From Acidobacteriota bacterium (GTDB lineage: Bacteria > Acidobacteriota > Terriglobia > Bryobacterales > UBA6623): a DNA stretch of 38,741 nt. Of the stretch, positions 4,217-12,402 are shown one piece after another; position 1 is the first letter of the stretch; each line of letters opens with the position of its first letter. A program made the translations under genes and the position numbers. The stretch is from assembly GCA_016125275.1 (NCBI GenBank), contig WGMB01000002.1, positions 214,490-253,230 of the forward strand, written 5' to 3'. The notes beneath the pieces are model-generated. The model had not been told where the DNA came from, searched no databases, and saw only the letters and a list, made by a program, of their open reading frames with translations.

Positions 4217-5311
4217 TTACTGCAGTTTGCCGCGGGCTGCGACGGTGAAAACCTGCTCGACGGCGTCGCCGCGAATCCCGTACATCTTCTCATGCAGGTT
4301 CACGGTCACGCAGATGTGATTGGGGATGATGCGCAGGCGGTCGCCGATCTTGACGTCGAGCGAGGCCTCGCGGAGGTCGAGATAGCCGTGCTCCTCGTTC
4401 TTCATGTAGAACTTGACGGCGGGGTCTTCGACGATGCGTCCCCAGCTCGTGCCGGCGGCGTCGGGGACGGTTTCTGACGAGAACGTCTTGGTGCCGCCGT
4501 CGACGATGGCAAAGCCGGGCCGCGGGGTGGAGACAACCGTCACCAGGACTGCCGCGGCGCAGTGCTCCCAGCCGCAGAAGCCGGAGGCGACCATGTCGCA
4601 GTCGTTGAAGACGTAGGTGCCCGGCCGGAGCTCGTTGAGGTCCTTCATCTCGTGGGACCGGAACAGAGTGGGCGTGGAGCCGCCGCTGACGATCTCGAGC
4701 GGCAGGCCGGCCTTGCGAAAGTCGTCGCACGCTTGGGCCAGCAGCGCGCCGGAGCGGGCGAACTGGGCGTCGTAGTCGGCGTGCGGCGGCCAGATGTGGC
4801 CGGGGTAGAAATGCAAACCGAGCAGGTTGAGCCCGGGCAACCCCTGCACCTGCCGCGCCAGCGAGACCAAGGAGGCGCCGGGGGCCAGGCCGGTGCGGTC
4901 CATGCCGACGTTCTCCTCGACGAGCACGCCGATGGTCAAGCCGGCCTGGCGGGCGGCGTCAGAGAGCGCCTGCGCGACCTCCAAGCTGTCGAGCGAAACC
5001 GTCACTTGCGTCTGCCGCGCGACGGCCATCAGGCGCTCCAGCTTGCGCTGCCCCCAGACCGGATAAGCCAGCAGCAGGTCGGGCGACTGGGCCGGGGCCA
5101 TCGCCTCGGCCTCGCCGACCTTGGCCACGGTCAGGCCCACGGCTCCGGCGTCGAGCTGCATGCGCCCGATCTCCGGAGTCTTGTGCGTCTTGGTATGCGG
5201 CCGCAGCCGGAAACCGTGCTCCTTGGCGTAGGAAGCGACGCGCGACAGGTTGCCGGCGAGCGCGTCCAGATCAACGAGAAGGGCGGGAGTATCGAGCTCT
5301 GCGATGCGCAT
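4217..5311 (-). CDS. D-serine dehydratase / D-threonine aldolase-type PLP enzyme
   Basis: A 364-residue fold-III PLP enzyme (alanine-racemase-like barrel plus C-terminal D-serine-dehydratase-like domain). The N-terminus LDTPALLVDLDAL is typical, the PLP lysine lies in RPHTKTHK (residues 37-44), and the C-terminal metal site H-x-C appears as PNHICVT (H332, C334), the pair that binds zinc in eukaryotic-type D-serine dehydratase. Known members either dehydrate D-serine to pyruvate and ammonia or cleave D-threonine to glycine and acetaldehyde; sequence alone does not settle which. The following ridA gene favours the dehydratase reaction, since it releases 2-aminoacrylate. No strong Shine-Dalgarno is visible before the ATG. 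Confidence 0.85.
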   Translation of the reverse strand: MRIAELDTPALLVDLDALAGNLSRVASYAKEHGFRLRPHTKTHKTPEIGRMQLDAGAVGLTVAKVGEAEAMAPAQSPDLLLAYPVWGQRKLERLMAVARQTQVTVSLDSLEVAQALSDAARQAGLTIGVLVEENVGMDRTGLAPGASLVSLARQVQGLPGLNLLGLHFYPGHIWPPHADYDAQFARSGALLAQACDDFRKAGLPLEIVSGGSTPTLFRSHEMKDLNELRPGTYVFNDCDMVASGFCGWEHCAAAVLVTVVSTPRPGFAIVDGGTKTFSSETVPDAAGTSWGRIVEDPAVKFYMKNEEHGYLDLREASLDVKIGDRLRIIPNHICVTVNLHEKMYGIRGDAVEQVFTVAARGKLQ

Positions 5312-5464
5312 GCCTGGAAGGGCGAGCGTATCGAAGACGGGGAAGGGATGGCAAGCGCCGAGCCCGGACCTTAGCTGGTACGTAGATACACCGAAGGAAA
5401 TAGGCCGTTTTGCCGATCACAGTGAACAGGGCCGCCCGGCTAGCCTGAACGCGTCGTGGCAGCG

Positions 5465-5488
5465 CTCCCCGACCCATGAGGCGGGGAG
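5465..5488 (+). promoter_or_regulatory. Hairpin in the leader of the GGDEF-EAL gene
   Basis: Perfect 7-bp arms CTCCCCG (5465-5471) and CGGGGAG (5482-5488) around a 10-nt loop lie 40 nt before the ATG at 5529, in the 217-bp gap between divergent genes. No T tract follows, so it is not an obvious terminator. I looked for the c-di-GMP-I aptamer core and did not find it. Function unknown. Confidence 0.4.
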
Positions 5489-5528
5489 TCTCCGCGGGCG
5501 GCTGTCTTATCGTCCTGTTTGCGCGGCA

Positions 5529-8500
5529 ATGCGTTTGTTTCGCTGGCAAAGCATAAAAAGGAGGCTGGCAACCCTCCGACGCCCGGGTCTACCGGAGCTC
5601 GCCTTCGTCGGCGTAGCTTTGTCCTGCCTGCTGCTGCCCCAATGGTGGGCGCTTTCCCGCAACGAAGAGCAACGGCGTCAGGAACTGCGGGTGGCGCTGC
5701 GCACGACCGCGGACACCACCGAGTTGGCGATCCAGTCGTGGGAGTCCGAGGCGCTGCGCCAAGCGCAGGCGGTGGTGCAGTCACCGGAAGTGGCCGATGC
5801 GTTCGTGCGCCTGCAACTCGGCTCCCAGGGGCCGATCGAGGCCGACGGACCGTTGCTTCGGGGAGCCCAGGCGGCCGGGTTCAGCGCCGTCGCCCTGCTC
5901 GACGCCGACGGCCGCGTCGCGGCTTCGAGCGACAGTGACTGGGAGGGACGGACCGTACCGCCTGAGCAGCTCGAGAATCTGGGCCAGGGTCCGGGTAAGT
6001 TCATCCGCTGGGAAGGGAGCGGCCCCTGGACTCCGGCCGTGGCGGCGCCCGCGCCCAAGCGAGCGGGAACCGCGGCGGGGTTCGTCGTACTCACGATGGA
6101 GCCCTTGCCGGAGCTCTCCAATCTAGTTCGCGAGCGAGCCCTGGGGCGCAGCGGCAGAACGAGCCTGTTCGCCGTCGGCGGTCCCTGGCTGGTGGATTCG
6201 ACCGGCACCACCCCGCCGGACTGCAGCCGGCCGCCGGAGGCGGTGCTGGACGAGGCCGCCGGAAGCGGTCGCCGAGGCCTGCCCGGGTCGCCGTCGTTTA
6301 ACCTGGACGGCTATCGGGACTGCCGCGGCGGCGAAGCGGTGGGCGTCTGGACGATCTCGGGCGACGCCGGCCTCGGGTTGATCACCGAGATTTCCTACCG
6401 CGAAGCCTACGGTTCGCTGTCGACCTCGCGGGTGACGTTCGTGGGCTTCGGCGTGATGCTGGCCGGTCTGCTGCTGATGCTGGTTTTGATCCAGACATCG
6501 GGCGACCCGACTCCGATCGAGTCGGCTCCCCGGCCTCCGCGCAGCAACGCCGCCTGGGGCATTCTGGGCGTGGCGCTGCTGGCGACGGTCATCGCCTGGG
6601 TGACGGCGCGCTCGCGCTACCTCGAGCACCAGCGGGACCGCTTTACCACCTCGTCGCAGCGCGTGGAAGCGGACTTTCGCGAACGGCTGGAGAGCCACGC
6701 CGCCGCGCTGGACGCAGCCCGCGGCGCCCTGGAAGCCTTCCCCGCCATGGACGTCGCCGAATGGCGCCGGTTCCTGGCCGGACTCAACTTGCGCGAGAAC
6801 TTCCCGGCCATCTCGTGCGTGACCGCCATCTCAGTGGAACAGCGGCGCGTGGAGCCACGGTTCTGCTACCCCGACGCCGCCGCCGACTCCTGCGCCCTGT
6901 GCCGCACGGTGCGCGGCGACGAAGCGCTCGCTGATGCTGTCGGCGAGGCGCTCGATAGCCATGAGCCCGTGGCGACGATTTTGGCTTCGGGCAGCCCCGA
7001 CGCGCGGCGTCTGCTCGCCGTGGTCACCGCTCCGCCCCAGCGAAACGGCGCGAAGCTGCTGCCGGTGGGCGTGCTGGACCTGGAGCAGTTGGCCCGCAAC
7101 ATGACGCGCGAGCGGAGCTTCGCCATCGAGATGGAGCTCTATGAGGGCGCCGAGCCGACGCCGGAGGCGCTGCTGTACGAGTCCGGCGGCGACCTCGACC
7201 CGGCGCAGGCCTCCGAGGACATCCCGCCGCGCAAGTCTACGTTCGTCTTCGGCGGCCGGCAGTGGACGCTGGCCCTGGCGCCTGCCGAGTCGCTGGCGAC
7301 GCCGATCACTCAGAACTATCCGGCGCAGGTGCTGCTGGCCGGTCTGGCGATTTCGGTGCTGCTGTTCGATATCGCGCTGGTGTTGTCTTCGACGCGCTCG
7401 CGGGCGCTGGCGATCGCCGAGCTGATGACGCGGCGCTTCCGCGACGGAGAAGTCCGTATCCGTGCCGTGCTCGATAGCGCTCCGGACGGCATCGTCACCT
7501 TTGACGCCCACGGCGTGATCCAAACCTTCAACCCCGGCGCCGAGAAGCTCTTCGGCTACAGCGCCGAGGAGGCGCGTGAGATCCGCATCGTGGATTTGCT
7601 GCCGGATCTGGACCTCTCCCGCGTCCAGCCGGCCGAGGGCATGGCCTTCGACGGCGTTCGCAAGGACGGCGGCCACTTTCCCAGCGAGATTGCGCTCAAC
7701 CGCACGCAGATTGGCGAGAGCCTGCTCTACACGGCGATCGTGCGAGACGTGTCGGCGCGGCGCGAAGCGCAGGAGAAGCTGGAGGAGAGCGAGCAACGCT
7801 ATGCGCTGGCCGCACGCGGCGCCAATGACGGTCTGTGGGACTGGAACCTGAAGACCAACAGCGTGTACTTCTCCGCGCGCTGGCGCAGCATGATCGGCAT
7901 CGAGGACGGCCCCTTCAGCGTGAGCCCCGACGAGTGGCTGGGGCGCGTGCACTCCGAGGACGTGGTGACCCTGCGCAAGCGGCTGGCCGATCACCTCGAG
8001 GGGCGCGTGCCGCACTTCGAGTGCGAGTATCGCATTCGTCACGCCAACGGCGGGTATCGCTGGATGCTCTGCCGCGGCATCGCCGTTCGCGACGAGGACT
8101 CTGCCGCCACGCGCATCGCCGGTTCCCAGACGGACATCACCGAGCGCAAGCGGGCCGAGCGGCAGCTGCTCTACGACGCCCTGCATGATCCGCTCACCGG
8201 TCTTCCCAACCGCACCTACTTCATGGGACGCGTGGACCAGGCGCGGCTGGAGGCCTCGCGCAGCTCGAACCGCATGTTCGGCCTGCTGTTCCTGGACATC
8301 GACCGCTTCAAGGTGGTCAACGACAGCCTGGGGCACTTCGTGGGCGATCAGTTGCTGGTGGCCGTATCCGAGCGGTTGAAGGGCTGCCTGCGTCCGGGCG
8401 ACACCATCTGCCGGCTGGGCGGCGACGAGTTCGCCATCCTGGTGGAGCACCTCGACGGCGTGAGCGACGCAACCCGCATCGCCGAGCGCATCCAGCACGA

Positions 8501-9530
8501 GCTCGAGCGGCCGCTGCGGGTGGGCGAACGCGAGATCTTCGCCGCCGTGAGCATCGGCATCGCGCTGAGCTCCACCGGCAAGCAGACGGCCGACGAGCTG
8601 CTGCGCGACGCCGACCTGGCCATGTACCGCGCCAAGTCGCGCGGCAAGGCGCGCTACGAGCTGTTTACGCAGCGGCTGCACACCCGAGCCGTGGAGTTGC
8701 TACAGCTGGAAACCGACCTCCGCCACGCGGTGGAACGCAACGAGTTGGTGCTGCACTACCAACCGATTGTGGACTTGGCCACCGGACGCATCGGCAGTTG
8801 CGAGGCGCTGATTCGTTGGAATCATCCGCCGAAGGGCCTGGTGCCGCCCTCGGACTTCATTGGGGTCGCCGAGGAAAGCGGCGCCATTGTCCAGATCACC
8901 CGCTGGCTGATGGAAGCCGCCTGCCGGCAGCGCAAGGCGTGGATCGAACAAGGCTTGCCGCCGGTGCGCGTCTCGGTGAACATCTCCCCGCGCCAACTGC
9001 TCCAGCAGGACATCTTCAACCTGGTGACGGACACGCTGGCCGCCACCGAACAGCCGCCGGAAGCGCTCCAGCTCGAGCTCACCGAGAGCGCCTTGATGGA
9101 GAGCTCCGAGTCGACCGTCACCCCGCTCAAGGAGCTCTACGCCAAGGGCGTGCGGATCTCCCTGGACGACTTCGGCACCGGATACTCGTCGCTGATCTAC
9201 CTGCGGCGATTCCCGATCCACAACATCAAGATCGACCAGTCGTTCGTTCGCAGCATTCCCCACGACGAAGGCAACGCCGCCATCGCCTCCGGCCTGATCG
9301 CGCTCGCCCACAGCCTCAATCTCCAGGTCGTAGCCGAGGGAGTGGAGACCATGGAGCAGTTGCGATTCCTGCAGGAAAGGGGCTGCGACGAGGTGCAGGG
9401 CTACGTGGTCAGCCAGCCGGTGCCCGCGGAAGCCTTCGGGCGCCTGCTTCTGCGCCGCGTGGACGTGGCCGCCTCGGACGCCGCCTCACTGCTCCATCCG
9501 CTGGCGCAGCAAGTCCACCCCACCGTCTGA
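5529..9530 (+). CDS. Membrane CHASE-PAS-PAS-GGDEF-EAL protein (c-di-GMP synthesis/hydrolysis)
   Basis: A 1333-residue inner-membrane signalling protein. From the N-terminus: TM1 (about 22-42), an extracytoplasmic sensor, TM2 (about 302-322), TM3 (about 340-360), a second extracytoplasmic CHASE-like sensor, TM4 (about 599-619), PAS (about 645-740, LDSAPDGIVTFDAHG), PAS_3 type (about 757-880, ANDGLWDWNLKTNSVYFS), GGDEF (about 886-1045) and EAL (about 1058-1305). The GGDEF signature is intact at 964-968, with an inhibitory-site RxxD (RPGD, 955-958) exactly five residues before it. The EAL motif is intact at 1092-1094 (EALIRW) and the metal pair DDFGTG begins at 1213, so both activities are possible. 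The frame is open for 93 codons upstream of the chosen ATG, but that part is not protein-like and runs into the opposite gene. No Shine-Dalgarno is evident. Confidence 0.93.
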   Translation: MRLFRWQSIKRRLATLRRPGLPELAFVGVALSCLLLPQWWALSRNEEQRRQELRVALRTTADTTELAIQSWESEALRQAQAVVQSPEVADAFVRLQLGSQGPIEADGPLLRGAQAAGFSAVALLDADGRVAASSDSDWEGRTVPPEQLENLGQGPGKFIRWEGSGPWTPAVAAPAPKRAGTAAGFVVLTMEPLPELSNLVRERALGRSGRTSLFAVGGPWLVDSTGTTPPDCSRPPEAVLDEAAGSGRRGLPGSPSFNLDGYRDCRGGEAVGVWTISGDAGLGLITEISYREAYGSLSTSRVTFVGFGVMLAGLLLMLVLIQTSGDPTPIESAPRPPRSNAAWGILGVALLATVIAWVTARSRYLEHQRDRFTTSSQRVEADFRERLESHAAALDAARGALEAFPAMDVAEWRRFLAGLNLRENFPAISCVTAISVEQRRVEPRFCYPDAAADSCALCRTVRGDEALADAVGEALDSHEPVATILASGSPDARRLLAVVTAPPQRNGAKLLPVGVLDLEQLARNMTRERSFAIEMELYEGAEPTPEALLYESGGDLDPAQASEDIPPRKSTFVFGGRQWTLALAPAESLATPITQNYPAQVLLAGLAISVLLFDIALVLSSTRSRALAIAELMTRRFRDGEVRIRAVLDSAPDGIVTFDAHGVIQTFNPGAEKLFGYSAEEAREIRIVDLLPDLDLSRVQPAEGMAFDGVRKDGGHFPSEIALNRTQIGESLLYTAIVRDVSARREAQEKLEESEQRYALAARGANDGLWDWNLKTNSVYFSARWRSMIGIEDGPFSVSPDEWLGRVHSEDVVTLRKRLADHLEGRVPHFECEYRIRHANGGYRWMLCRGIAVRDEDSAATRIAGSQTDITERKRAERQLLYDALHDPLTGLPNRTYFMGRVDQARLEASRSSNRMFGLLFLDIDRFKVVNDSLGHFVGDQLLVAVSERLKGCLRPGDTICRLGGDEFAILVEHLDGVSDATRIAERIQHELERPLRVGEREIFAAVSIGIALSSTGKQTADELLRDADLAMYRAKSRGKARYELFTQRLHTRAVELLQLETDLRHAVERNELVLHYQPIVDLATGRIGSCEALIRWNHPPKGLVPPSDFIGVAEESGAIVQITRWLMEAACRQRKAWIEQGLPPVRVSVNISPRQLLQQDIFNLVTDTLAATEQPPEALQLELTESALMESSESTVTPLKELYAKGVRISLDDFGTGYSSLIYLRRFPIHNIKIDQSFVRSIPHDEGNAAIASGLIALAHSLNLQVVAEGVETMEQLRFLQERGCDEVQGYVVSQPVPAEAFGRLLLRRVDVAASDAASLLHPLAQQVHPTV

Positions 9531-9596
9531 ACGGCTGACGAGCCGCCCTCGTTCGTGCGAAACCATACATCCCGCTAACGGCCCCCAAAGAGCCGC

Positions 9597-9622
9597 CAAA
9601 CGGGGCGTTTGCCCTTCTTTCT
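9597..9622 (+). terminator. Intrinsic terminator candidate after the GGDEF-EAL gene
   Basis: Arms CAAACG (9597-9602) and CGTTTG (9606-9611) around GGG are followed by the pyrimidine-rich CCCTTCTTTCT, 67 nt after the stop codon. The stem is short and the tail imperfect. Confidence 0.5.
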
Positions 9623-9686
9623 GCGCCTCGCGGCGAGCCGAGCCGCACCCGGATTCAGCCCGCGGGCCCCGGACCTTCCGCCCATG

Positions 9687-9724
9687 CGTACCGGAGCCCC
9701 CCTCTTGGCTCCCGCGGCGGTACG
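9687..9724. repeat. Long two-part hairpin
   Basis: Outer arms CGTACC (9687-9692) and GGTACG (9719-9724) and inner arms GGAGCC (9693-9698) and GGCTCC (9707-9712) give a 12-bp interrupted stem with an 8-nt loop and a 6-nt bulge. It could be a second terminator or a structured RNA element; no T tract beyond TTT follows. Confidence 0.45.
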
Positions 9725-9800
9725 TTTCGGGACCTCGATCTCCCGCTTCCCCCACCCTGGGACATACCCTTGTTGCTGTAGGATAAATATGTCTTATGCC

Positions 9801-9849
9801 ATATCGACAGAGCTCTGTAGTACTGGTACTTTAGTGATATCGGTACTGG
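9801..9849. repeat. Cluster of short palindromes and GGTACT-type repeats
   Basis: A perfect 12-bp palindrome ACAGAGCTCTGT (9807-9818) is followed by AGTACT, then two GGTACT copies within about 30 bp, and the whole is bracketed by two direct copies of ATATCG (9801-9806, 9837-9842). GGTAC also forms the outer arms of the palindrome at 10356-10389. This could be a cluster of regulator sites; no regulator gene is nearby. Confidence 0.35.
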
Positions 9850-10001
9850 AGAGGCCAACGAAACGAAAAGCGTACGACCTTGCGGGGCACAGCGCGCCAC
9901 CGAGCGAGTGAGACCAGGAGTTCCACCCGAGGCGCCGCCCGGCGAAGGCCTGATTCCCTGGCTCCCATTTCCAGGAAAAAGGTCACCGTCGTAGGAACAT
10001 T

Positions 10002-10014
10002 CGCCAAAATGGCG
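10002..10014. promoter_or_regulatory. Operator-like palindrome upstream of the peptide promoter
   Basis: CGCCA (10002-10006), AAA, TGGCG (10010-10014) is a perfect 13-bp inverted repeat ending 8 bp before the -35 box at 10023. The position suits an activator or repressor site, but no binding protein is known. Confidence 0.35.
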
Positions 10015-10022
10015 TACCTCTA

Positions 10023-10051
10023 TTGACGTAGTTGCTTAAGTCTCATACAGT
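10023..10051 (+). promoter_or_regulatory. Sigma-70-type promoter of the 40-codon peptide gene
   Basis: TTGACG (10023-10028) matches the -35 consensus at five of six positions and TACAGT (10046-10051) the -10 at four of six, with the optimal 17-nt spacer. Predicted transcription start is near 10058, giving a leader of about 80 nt. The leader contains a hairpin GCTCC/GGAGC (10099-10112) ending 14 nt before the Shine-Dalgarno. Confidence 0.6.
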
Positions 10052-10139
10052 AAGACCAGAGGCGTATGACTTCCCTCGGGAAATGCGTATGCCGGACCGC
10101 TCCAGACGGAGCACAGTTAGATTTTCGGAGGCTCACACC

Positions 10140-10262
10140 ATGATTCGCTTTGCCACTGTTGTTGGTTCGCTCGTCAGCAGCGCTTTGGAGATGATCCACT
10201 CGACCGACAAGAAGGACGACGTCCGCTACATGCCGTTCCCGTGGGAACACGACGAGTGCTAG
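10140..10262 (+). CDS. 40-residue peptide of unknown function in its own transcription unit
   Basis: Not a family I recognise. The ATG is preceded by a strong Shine-Dalgarno GGAGG (10127-10131) at 8 nt, and the unit is framed by a promoter at 10023-10051 and a textbook intrinsic terminator at 10287-10319, so it has every part of a real gene. The first 19 residues (MIRFATVVGSLVSSALEMI) are hydrophobic/amphipathic. The middle is strongly charged (TDKKDDVRY) and the end is MPFPWEHDEC, aromatic, proline-containing and acidic, finishing on cysteine. It could be a signalling peptide, a modified-peptide precursor, a small membrane-associated protein or a leader-type product. The next gene, 138 nt downstream, encodes a 7-TM protein, which makes a peptide-sensor pairing conceivable but unproven. 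An in-frame start at 10032 would add 36 residues, but lies upstream of the predicted transcription start. Confidence 0.7.
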   Translation: MIRFATVVGSLVSSALEMIHSTDKKDDVRYMPFPWEHDEC

Positions 10263-10286
10263 TGGCCTGACGCAGCAGTTCCCGAG

Positions 10287-10319
10287 GAGCCGGCCCGTCG
10301 AGGCCGGCTCTTTCTCTCA
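10287..10319 (+). terminator. Intrinsic terminator of the peptide gene
   Basis: Perfect 9-bp GC-rich arms GAGCCGGCC (10287-10295) and GGCCGGCTC (10302-10310) with a 6-nt loop, followed by TTTCTCTCA. It lies 24 nt after the peptide stop and separates that unit from the genes at 10401-11722. Confidence 0.85.
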
Positions 10320-10355
10320 TCCCTGAAATCCCTCTTCCCCTTTGGGGCGCCTGGT

Positions 10356-10389
10356 GGTACTATCAGTACTGACTACTGATAGCTGTACC
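10356..10389. promoter_or_regulatory. 34-bp palindrome just upstream of the 7-TM gene
   Basis: Perfect 8-bp arms TATCAGTA (10361-10368) and TACTGATA (10374-10381) flank CTGAC, with outer arms GGTAC (10356-10360) and GTACC (10385-10389). It ends 11 bp before the ATG at 10401 and overlaps a possible -10 (TACTAT, 10358-10363), so it is well placed as a repressor operator or an RNA hairpin covering the start region. No Shine-Dalgarno precedes 10401. Confidence 0.6.
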
Positions 10390-10400
10390 CGGGCTGCTCC

Positions 10401-11207
10401 ATGCTCCAAGAGATCCGAGACTTCTGCTGGCCGCTATCCATAGCCCTTTTGGGGCTGTGGGCCGTGCAGATCATTCGCTTTCGGCTCGCCAAGCGATACT
10501 CGGCTCTGCTCGCCTATTTGGTCACGGCGTTCCTGCTCGGAGGCGGCGGCTACATTGCCGAACGCTTCCTCGACGCCAGGTGGCTGGGTCACTCCTTCTA
10601 CTTTTGGTATTGGGCTGCCTCGCAGCCGGTGCTCTGGCTGCTCCTGTTCGCCGTCGTGTTCGAATGCTTCAGCCGCATGACCGAGTCCTACCAAGGGCTA
10701 CGGCGGTTGGGTCGGCTGGTGGTGCTTGGTTTGGCCGGCGGAGTCGTCACGGTCATCGGGCTGGTTGTCATCCTCGATCCATTCGAAAATCCGAATCCGC
10801 GCTTCTGGAATAGCGTGCTGTTAATCCAGCAACAAAGCGTCTATTTCGCGACGGCCGGCAGCGTGATGCTGTTGCTCGCCATTCGGCGGTTCTTCAACAT
10901 TCCGGTGGCGCGCAACCTCAGAACGACCATGGGCGTGCTGGGGGTCTACTTCATCAGCGTCGCGGCCATGACGGCGATTCGGAGCTATGTGGGGTATGTG
11001 AGCCGCGAGCTCGACATCGCTGTGGATGTCGCCGGCTTGGTCATCTACTGTGCGTGTGTGCTCTTCGGCGCGGCGGTCTTCTCCCGTGGCGGAGAGGATG
11101 TCGCCAGCGATCCGCGGATCAGCGCGGATTCGGCCGACGCTCTACGGAGCGCTTCGGGGCGGCTCCAGGAAGTTAATGCTCATCTCTTGAAGGCGGTTGC
11201 GAAATGA
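10401..11207 (+). CDS. Unrecognised seven-TM membrane protein
   Basis: A 268-residue polytopic inner-membrane protein with seven predicted hydrophobic segments at about 8-26, 33-55, 66-89, 104-125, 136-161, 175-197 and 206-228. A soluble, mildly charged tail of about 40 residues follows (SADSADALRSASGRLQ). There is no kinase, cyclase or transport signature that I can name. The architecture resembles 7-TM sensor proteins that lack an output domain, and similar unnamed proteins are, to my recollection, common in Acidobacteria. The stop overlaps the next ATG by 4 nt (ATGA), so the two products are made together and probably interact. A strong palindrome overlaps the promoter region, and the unit is isolated from the upstream peptide gene by a terminator. 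Confidence 0.8.
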   Translation: MLQEIRDFCWPLSIALLGLWAVQIIRFRLAKRYSALLAYLVTAFLLGGGGYIAERFLDARWLGHSFYFWYWAASQPVLWLLLFAVVFECFSRMTESYQGLRRLGRLVVLGLAGGVVTVIGLVVILDPFENPNPRFWNSVLLIQQQSVYFATAGSVMLLLAIRRFFNIPVARNLRTTMGVLGVYFISVAAMTAIRSYVGYVSRELDIAVDVAGLVIYCACVLFGAAVFSRGGEDVASDPRISADSADALRSASGRLQEVNAHLLKAVAK

Positions 11208-11722
11208 CGTTCATCGTTCTTGTTCTGCTATTTACTCTTGCTTTCGGGGTTCTGCTGGCGGCCGAGTTGCTGCGGGCGAGCGCCGATAGCCGCGGTCACT
11301 CCACCGCCGAAGCGGTGGCGGGCGATCGCTCGATCTCGCTCGAGCAGCTCCAACGGCTGCTCGACGATGCGGATGGCCAATACTTGCAAGGCCACCCAAG
11401 TCTGGCGCGGAAGCACCGCCAGGAACGCCGCAAGGTCCTGCGGGTCTACCTGCAGGCGTTGCGCGCTGAGTTTCTGCGCGTGTTCGGCGTCTGTCGGCTG
11501 CTGGCTCCGGTCAGCCGCGATCCGGAGTTCGTCTCCCAACTGGCGCGATCCTACGCTGTGTTCCACTCGGCTTACTTCCTGCTCTGGATGAGCAGTTGGA
11601 CCGGCGTTTCGTTCTCGCCCGCCAAGCTGGCCGGCCTGTCGCAGGCTGTCCGGCAGATTCGCGCGCAGGCCGACGGCCTACTGCACAGCGACTCGGCGCT
11701 GGCGACGAGCTCTTCGCACTAA
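11204..11722 (+). CDS. Membrane-anchored hypothetical partner of the 7-TM protein
   Basis: A 172-residue protein with one N-terminal membrane segment (TFIVLVLLFTLAFGVLLAAELL) and an otherwise helical, arginine-rich soluble part (LARKHRQERRKVLRVYLQALRAEFLRVF), followed by a hydrophobic patch (YAVFHSAYFLLWMSSW). I do not recognise a family. The 4-nt overlap with the 7-TM gene indicates translational coupling. The anchored basic helical region could dock on the membrane or on the 7-TM tail. The stop codon is followed at once by a tandem palindrome and then a strong hairpin. Confidence 0.75.
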   Translation: MTFIVLVLLFTLAFGVLLAAELLRASADSRGHSTAEAVAGDRSISLEQLQRLLDDADGQYLQGHPSLARKHRQERRKVLRVYLQALRAEFLRVFGVCRLLAPVSRDPEFVSQLARSYAVFHSAYFLLWMSSWTGVSFSPAKLAGLSQAVRQIRAQADGLLHSDSALATSSSH

Positions 11723-11750
11723 ATCGAAGCTTCGCATACGAAGCTTCGAT
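11723..11750. repeat. Tandem perfect palindromes upstream of cbiM
   Basis: Two copies of the 10-bp palindrome CGAAGCTTCG (11725-11734 and 11739-11748) separated by CATA, the pair itself being a perfect 12-bp inverted repeat (11723-11734 with 11739-11750). It starts directly after the 11722 stop. It could be a double operator for a metal-responsive regulator of the cbi genes, or an RNA hairpin; no T tract follows. Confidence 0.55.
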
Positions 11751-11766
11751 TCGTGCTAAACTACCG

Positions 11767-11813
11767 AAATCCGGCCGGCGGCTCCAGCCCGCCGATGCCG
11801 GATTTTCGCTTTT
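11767..11813 (+). terminator. Terminator-like hairpin abutting the cbiM start codon
   Basis: Arms AAATCCGGC (11767-11775) with GCCGGATTT (11797-11805) and inner arms CGGCGG (11776-11781) with CCGCCG (11789-11794) form a strong stem followed by a T-rich tail TTTTCGCTTTT (11803-11813). The cbiM ATG is at 11815, with no Shine-Dalgarno. It is either the end of the 10401-11722 unit or an attenuator controlling cbiM; there is almost no room for a separate cbiM promoter after it. Confidence 0.7.
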
Positions 11814-11814
11814 C

Positions 11815-12402
11815 ATGCACATCGCCGACGGCGTCCTCCCGGCTGAGCTCTGCGTTGCCGCGCATGCGGTGGCCTGGACGGGGGTCTACGCCCTAGGCCG
11901 ACGCCTGCGGCCCGAAGAGATCTCGCGCATGGGGCTTTTGGCCGCGGCGTCGTTCGTAGCGTCGCTGGCGCACTTCCCGCTGGGCGGCGTGACCGTGCAT
12001 TTGGGACTCTACGGCCTGATCGGCGTCATCCTCGGGCGCCGGGGCTTTCCGGTGGTCTTTGCCACGCTCCTATTCCAGGCGCTGCTGTTCCAGCACGGAG
12101 GCCTGCTGAGCCTGGGCGTCAACGCCGTGAACATGGGCGCCGGAGCGCTGGCCGCCTGGGGCCTATGGAGCCTTCCGGGGCTGGGCGCGGGTCTGCGAGC
12201 GTTCGCGGCGGGGTTTGTCGGTACGATGTTGCCGGCAGTGCTGATGGCGACTGAGTTCGCGCTCACCGGCTACGGACGAGGCTTCGCGGTGCTGGCGACG
12301 GCCTATCTGGCCGCAGCGGCGATCGAGGGCTTGGTCACGGCCGGCGCGGTGAGCTTCTTCCAAAAGACCAAACCGGAGATCTTGCAGCAGGCGACGGCAT
12401 GA
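11815..12402 (+). CDS. cbiM: ECF-type cobalt/nickel transporter substrate-binding subunit CbiM
   Basis: A 195-residue integral membrane S-component of a Co/Ni energy-coupling-factor transporter. The start MHIADGVLP fits the family hallmark, where the N-terminal Met-His chelates the metal, so the ATG at 11815 is certain even though the frame is open upstream. Six to seven hydrophobic segments follow, with the conserved GVTVHLGLYGLIGVILG and NAVNMGAGALAAWG stretches. It overlaps the next gene by 4 nt (ATGA) and heads cbiM-cbiL-like-cbiQ. No Shine-Dalgarno is seen; a terminator-like hairpin ends next to the start, suggesting metal- or translation-dependent control. Cobalt for B12 versus nickel for hydrogenase/urease cannot be separated from sequence. 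Confidence 0.93.
   Translation: MHIADGVLPAELCVAAHAVAWTGVYALGRRLRPEEISRMGLLAAASFVASLAHFPLGGVTVHLGLYGLIGVILGRRGFPVVFATLLFQALLFQHGGLLSLGVNAVNMGAGALAAWGLWSLPGLGAGLRAFAAGFVGTMLPAVLMATEFALTGYGRGFAVLATAYLAAAAIEGLVTAGAVSFFQKTKPEILQQATA

Follow-up and report, generated by a model that had tools for sequence, protein, structure and literature searches.

Tiny predicted-export peptides encoded beside a seven-helix membrane protein in the Terriglobia, an apparently undescribed set

In Agr peptide signalling (AgrD, AgrB, and AgrC), a short Cys-containing peptide gene adjoins the gene for a polytopic membrane protein. In RRNPP and Rgg-SHP systems, an XRE-type regulator gene lies near a small exported-peptide gene. 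Precursors of such messages carry repeated units. Colicins are antimicrobials whose production is tied to stress. The Acidobacteriota abound in soil, and we know of no description of peptide signalling in this phylum. Text searches of open papers listed none, nor any description of the gene module reported here. Part of a review of soil Acidobacteria discusses quorum sensing as acyl-homoserine lactone genes (PMC7661733).

The module resembles Agr in that a short Cys-containing peptide gene adjoins the gene for a polytopic membrane protein. It differs in that its membrane protein is not placed in the AgrB protease family, Pfam AgrB being touched by one of 33 relatives (E 0.0081) and not at all by the protein studied here, and in that no histidine kinase gene was noticed in the module. 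Complete versions resemble RRNPP and Rgg-SHP systems in having an XRE-type regulator gene near a small exported-peptide gene. They differ in that the C-terminus of the regulator is LexA/CI-like in a moderate model rather than a repeat domain, and in the addition of a seven-helix protein and a partner protein. The 40-residue peptide at the center of this analysis looks like the product of a real gene. It belongs, as an atypical case, to a large group of tiny exported peptides, mostly with Cys, whose genes adjoin that of a seven-helix membrane protein in many Acidobacteriota. The group is apparently undescribed, and its members probably serve either for signalling or for attacking rivals.

The window, meaning the whole stretch of DNA analysed, is 38,741 nt long and contains the following features:

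10023-10028 and 10046-10051, + strand: promoter-like -35 (TTGACG) and -10 (TACAGT) pair with a 17-nt spacer.
10127-10131, + strand: Shine-Dalgarno sequence GGAGG, 8 nt 5′ of the ATG at 10140.
10140-10262, + strand: 40-codon peptide gene, product MIRFATVVGSLVSSALEMIHSTDKKDDVRYMPFPWEHDEC, from the ATG at 10140 to the stop codon TAG at 10260-10262.
10287-10310, + strand: terminator-like hairpin between the peptide gene and the seven-helix gene.
10360-10382, no strand assigned: perfect 9-bp palindrome CTATCAGTA-N5-TACTGATAG, directly before the seven-helix gene.
10401-11207, + strand: 268-aa seven-helix membrane protein (AlphaFold pLDDT 86.9, pTM 0.80).
11204-11722, + strand: 172-aa partner, its start overlapping the seven-helix stop, with a homologue in genome G004 and profile matches.

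The promoter pair and its spacer, the GGAGG at 8 nt, the 40-codon open reading frame (ORF), and a perfect 9-bp terminator-like repeat had been described in the sequence-only reading, and all are present. TTGACG/TACAGT has 9 of 12 consensus matches and is the single promoter-like site in 9500-10450 (shuffles, mean 0.3). The hairpin pairs 10287-10295 with 10302-10310 around a 6-nt loop, is followed by the tail TTTCTCTC, and was missed by a strict terminator scan and listed by a looser one. The structured leader of about 80 nt in the same description was not borne out. Stability of the 82-nt leader is within chance (MFE z = -0.89; 32 of 200 shuffles equally or more stable), as is that of the whole transcript (z = -1.04; 31/200). 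No Rfam family reached its gathering score across the window. A small-RNA reading was rejected on the lack of an Rfam match, the ordinary leader stability, and the strongly coding frame.

The palindrome at 10360-10382 is the sole copy in the genome with up to 3 mismatches allowed and is a possible operator candidate. GTACT/AGTACT repeats cluster at 9816-9848, upstream of the peptide unit, and resemble part of the element at 10356-10382. A two-part GTACT motif, an early guess, had zero matches in the genome. A large PAS-GGDEF-EAL protein is encoded upstream of the peptide unit at 5250-9530. On the other side, the ORF of a CbiM-type cobalt uptake protein (11596-12402) overlaps the end of the partner frame.

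Under a codon-usage model trained on six genes of the window, the peptide frame scored +11.5 bits. Shuffles of the same 120 bases scored -21.0 ± 8.3 bits, with 0 of 2,000 as good, and the five other frames scored -4.4 to -40.5. The peptide has a hydrophobic export-type start, a short charged stretch, and a terminal Cys; the start, previously called amphipathic, is better taken as a hydrophobic export signal. The sequence-only reading was staked on homologous ORFs with conserved residues, and none was found by sequence. Searches matched the peptide itself once in its own genome and in 1 of 18 genomes of the family, again itself. Among 299 genomes of the class, three matched: its own and two by chance, one antisense to a large receptor-like gene (locus L004) and one inside a dehydrogenase-like gene (L005), both genes named by eye.

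The downstream gene was used as the search anchor because the peptide sequence gave no relatives. The 268-aa protein has no Pfam, NCBIfam, or PDB sequence matches, and the 172-aa partner has no Pfam matches. G004, from the same family, encodes a relative of the 268-aa protein, followed by a partner relative at 29% identity; upstream of its seven-helix gene lies an ORF of 59 codons that starts hydrophobic and is Cys-rich at its end. G163, from another family, has the same gene order and a 42-aa peptide ending SCPLTGCK. A first search of genome contigs with the window protein yielded zero relatives, and a two-row profile matched 2 of 396 phylum genomes, its own included. A three-row profile (window, G004, and G163) found relatives in 183 of 399 class genomes at E ≤ 0.01, and it was this profile, not the earlier searches, that opened up the family.

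The AlphaFold model of the window protein has seven long helices and a C-terminal helix. Among the 50 PDB structures listed as matches, nearly all are GPCRs or GPCR-like; the list also has a rhodopsin-type pump and a designed helical repeat protein. The model shares the seven-helix order of GPCRs, with VIA-align Z up to 15.0 and, in the rows shown, rmsd 3.6-4.3 over about 220 residues and 7-16% identity. However, none of the Foldseek matches reached E 0.001, and the Z values are near the helical-bundle background, so no GPCR kinship is claimed. The model supports a seven-helix, receptor-like shape and nothing beyond it. In a tree of the family, the window copy, the G004 copy, and a second copy from the window's own genome (contig C3) group weakly, the C3 branch being very long. 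Rows from family f2 and from family f10 each form one supported group, and rows from family f6 do not. A longer subtype (268-310 aa) occurs without a partner or a peptide passing the rule given below (L012, L013, L021, L026-L029, and L034); most of those shown have a tail like SLIPMFEGMVDRALSR.

Peptide genes before seven-helix genes were sought with a rule that specifies a ribosome site, a basic residue (K or R) between positions 2 and 8, a hydrophobic segment, and a Cys beyond residue 20. The ORF had to be on the same strand and end no more than about 520 nt upstream of the seven-helix gene. The rule was applied to 90 loci, a selection from the matches made up of the window, 29 others fetched, and 60 picked down the match list. 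It fired at 58 of them, compared with 3/90 on the reverse strand and 3.2 per shuffled set. At 25 loci from named records (metagenome genomes, such as those of Bryobacterales), at least 7 of which repeat members of the 90-locus set, it fired at 20, compared with 0/25 on the opposite strand. In a control with real genes from the same stretches, 34 of 38 seven-helix genes had a rule hit in front of them, compared with 6 of 224 other ORFs. A partner of about 175 aa lies 3′ of the seven-helix gene at 53 of the 90 loci by profile, window and G004 counted. Both peptide and partner are present at 42 loci, the peptide alone at 16, the partner alone at 11, and neither at 21.

Of the 32 loci at which the rule failed, 7 are short of upstream sequence (under 520 nt), about a dozen have the longer seven-helix subtype, and 8 have both a partner and a full upstream region. 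Looser rules were applied to 20 of the 32. Two loci (L052 and L053) have likely peptides failing the ribosome-site test only, and 2 of 6 loci in f6 have exported-type proline-rich candidates, both Cys-less. In genus g14, all six loci (L046, L055, L065, L073, L075, and L089) have a seven-helix gene and no recognisable peptide even under looser rules. The peptide is present in most sampled lineages, not all, and Cys is not obligatory. Peptide, seven-helix, and partner genes recur across the class as a module, whose function we infer. The window locus has a rule-passing peptide (chance rate of the rule about 3%), a related seven-helix protein, and a partner directly downstream; it lacks the usual two or more Cys in the peptide. 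A terminator between the peptide and seven-helix genes was rejected as a trait of the whole set, being present in just 4 of 71 gaps (0.8 in shuffles; looser scan).

Peptides found by the rule are 32-69 aa long, and 70 of 71 contain at least two Cys. The window peptide is the sole single-Cys case; its Cys is terminal, and a Trp lies near the position of the first Cys of the others. Conservation of both PFPWE and the Cys had been proposed as a check. PFPWE is not conserved, and C40 aligns with the invariant Cys of 46 aligned peptides, an invariance that is partly built in because the rule demands Cys. In the class-wide alignment, Cys positions and a Pro-rich approach are the only persisting features. 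A Bryobacteraceae-type group has well-kept ends, for example PPPECNPCPWVR, DNPLPECDPCPFVR, and APLPECNPCPWVR. Two residues separate the last two Cys in 39 of the 70 multi-Cys peptides, a spacing that would suit an envelope redox or metal-binding peptide whose CxxC-type pair holds a disulfide or metal, with the seven-helix protein as its membrane partner. However, the spacing ranges from 2 to 8, the window peptide has a single Cys, and the seven-helix alignments contain no invariant Cys. The two Cys-less f6 candidates lower the standing of this idea further, and it is considered very unlikely.

Across pairs of related peptides, pN/pS is 0.38 over the final 14 codons and 0.43 over the remainder, a rough estimate from 33 non-independent pairs that exclude the window peptide, with pS near 0.6. 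Six loci (L031, L032, L056, L066, L069, and L080) have tandem peptide genes, two or three to a locus, that are nearly identical. Single precursors carry a unit twice: LIVGPPPCGDC in L056, AYIPPPPCITDPVNPCRL in L082, and the proline-rich DGVRPTPPAPPK in the Cys-less L060 precursor. These repeated proline-rich units point to the C-terminal unit as the product. Such repetition sits poorly with a small membrane protein that stays uncleaved and acts as a regulator of the seven-helix protein within the membrane. That possibility has the hydrophobic N-terminal stretch and the adjacency of the two genes in its favor. The conserved Pro/Cys part, however, lies outside the hydrophobic stretch, many starts, read by eye, resemble a cleavable signal ending ADG or similar, and the idea is quite unlikely. 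Matches of the 46 peptides in NCBIfam and Pfam, including PhrK in one (E 0.0005) and PtrA in five (best E 0.0026), were set aside as signal-sequence look-alikes.

Forty wide loci were taken, and 39 yielded a seven-helix gene. At least 30 of the 39 have an XRE-type regulator gene upstream or close by; in L133 and L136 it is downstream. It often faces a gene of about 140 aa on the other strand, which a motif picked out in 12 loci and inspection by eye in a further 10; the 140-aa family has zero Pfam or PDB matches. At E ≤ 1e-20, 228 of 399 genomes contain the regulator family, which shows a weak Pfam helix-turn-helix match. Its model, of moderate quality (pLDDT 62), matches LexA and CI, the best match being Thermotoga LexA (E 3.6e-5). 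It would resemble LexA and phage CI in its helix-turn-helix start and LexA-like C-terminal fold. It may differ from them at the putative nucleophile position, placed by eye in 15 regulators (Ser in 6, Thr in 8, and Phe in 1), and in its putative site, TTC-N8-GAA.

This dyad, the putative operator, is present in 44 of 67 peptide upstreams (shuffled, 7.7; other spacings, 3-16), counted anywhere within up to 330 nt. The 67 remain from 76 after removal of 5 duplicates and of short and N-rich sequences. In most cases the dyad is found 90-120 nt ahead of the peptide start, with the peptide-side consensus TGTTCCAATTTCGGAAAATTT; regulator-side sites are nearer to a full palindrome, for example TTTTGTTCCGAATTCGGAACAAAA. 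A 37-site matrix finds it before 17 of 27 XRE genes (30 minus 3 duplicates) and in none of 27 stretches taken from within them. We infer that the XRE protein binds the dyad.

The window's own genome contains two copies of the module. Contig C3 (L145, 3639-6963) carries a complete cassette of peptide, seven-helix, partner, XRE, and 140-aa genes in canonical order; dyads precede both the XRE gene and the peptide. Its peptide has 54 aa and ends PCWGEC. Its seven-helix and partner genes were identified at E 2.9e-12 and E 2e-16 in an HMM search over the ORFs of one 13-kb stretch. A profile of the peptides did not recognise the C3 peptide (E 1.4). The C3 cassette adjoins a UbiX-like gene, named by eye. 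The window copy, on contig C10, has the peptide, seven-helix, and partner genes only; XRE and 140-aa genes are absent beside its peptide and are found on C3 with their own peptide. A TTC-N8-GAA dyad in 9531-10400 was rejected, the best matrix score there being -0.6, compared with at least 14.8 for 36 of 37 training sites. The window copy reads as a rewired second copy of the module.

Queries with the XRE, 140-aa, and seven-helix proteins matched 2 of 18 family genomes, the same two each time (the window's own and G004), a co-occurrence that is not independent because the genes are linked. The divergent C3 seven-helix gene was missed by genome searches, so absence elsewhere may reflect missed detection. 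When up to 1 mismatch is allowed, the genome has the pattern TGTTCYGNWTTCNGAACA at just two places, C3 and contig C20; the pattern misses the weaker peptide-side sites of C3. The C20 sites (L151, 5741 and 5827) are near-perfect dyads, two in number, at a short protein that is predicted to be basic and has a GRGKRRGRPPAWM stretch. No module genes were found in the 12 kb around them, and they are a possible further target of the regulator.

The absence of a homologue, the single Cys, and the missing dyad would all suit a decaying or chance ORF within a real seven-helix/partner locus, and other lineages have a seven-helix gene without a recognisable peptide. The coding score, the promoter, the ribosome site, and the low chance rate of the rule argue against decay or chance, which appears unlikely. 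The proposal that the ORF encodes a real, undescribed product, perhaps a signalling peptide, is supported, mostly by evidence beyond that first offered for it: coding bias and the class-wide arrangement.

We lean towards the window ORF being a functional gene that encodes a small exported peptide, the first gene of a peptide/seven-helix/partner module. Judged by the hydrophobicity rule, the N-terminus would direct Sec export, and cleavage would leave about 20 residues. The lineage-variable peptide would be a message that the seven-helix protein, with its partner, handles or senses. In complete cassettes the XRE protein would control the synthesis of the peptide and of itself. The window copy, having no dyad, would escape that control, with its own promoter and terminator and a separate palindrome before the seven-helix gene. 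Export, maturation, and recognition are proposed on gene order, composition, and co-inheritance. Signalling is the first choice for three reasons: a putative operator is common to regulator and peptide; peptide ends differ from lineage to lineage while purifying selection acts on them within lineages; and there are tandem genes and repeated units. Against a signalling module stand a window peptide without a sequence homologue and with a single Cys, the lack of an XRE gene or dyad at its locus, the empty g14 loci, the mostly empty f6 loci, and the 8 loci with a partner and full upstream region and no rule-passing peptide. A signalling reading also gives no account of outer-membrane passage.

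The main rival to signalling is a peptide weapon with membrane immunity, a possible reading and not a probable one. The peptide would attack rival cells, the seven-helix protein and partner would protect the producer, and the LexA-like regulator would tie production to stress. Consistent with this are lineage-variable exported peptides adjoining membrane proteins without a known family, the tandem peptide copies, and the LexA/CI-like fold predicted for the regulator. However, the putative nucleophile is Ser in just 6 of 15 regulators, and no bacteriocin-named family was found among the NCBIfam and Pfam matches of the 46 peptides. PADLOC returned nothing for 33 seven-helix and 15 XRE proteins. 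The f2 rows and f10 rows each form a supported tree group and related peptides are under purifying selection, which is less usual for weapons.

Through the module, a peptide without sequence relatives can be placed by way of its neighbor gene. The module also offers concrete genes, sites, and peptides to test, with loci available in named records and a putative operator. Under the signalling reading, a broader and doubtful extension is that the Terriglobia have their own, old, class-wide peptide communication, with lineage-variable exported peptides, a seven-helix receptor whose helices are arranged as in GPCRs, and a signal-sensing XRE repressor of LexA fold, the window carrying a second, rewired channel within one cell. 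If true, the XRE repressor would sense a peptide signal, not DNA damage, and some of the peptides would be made as precursor repeats.
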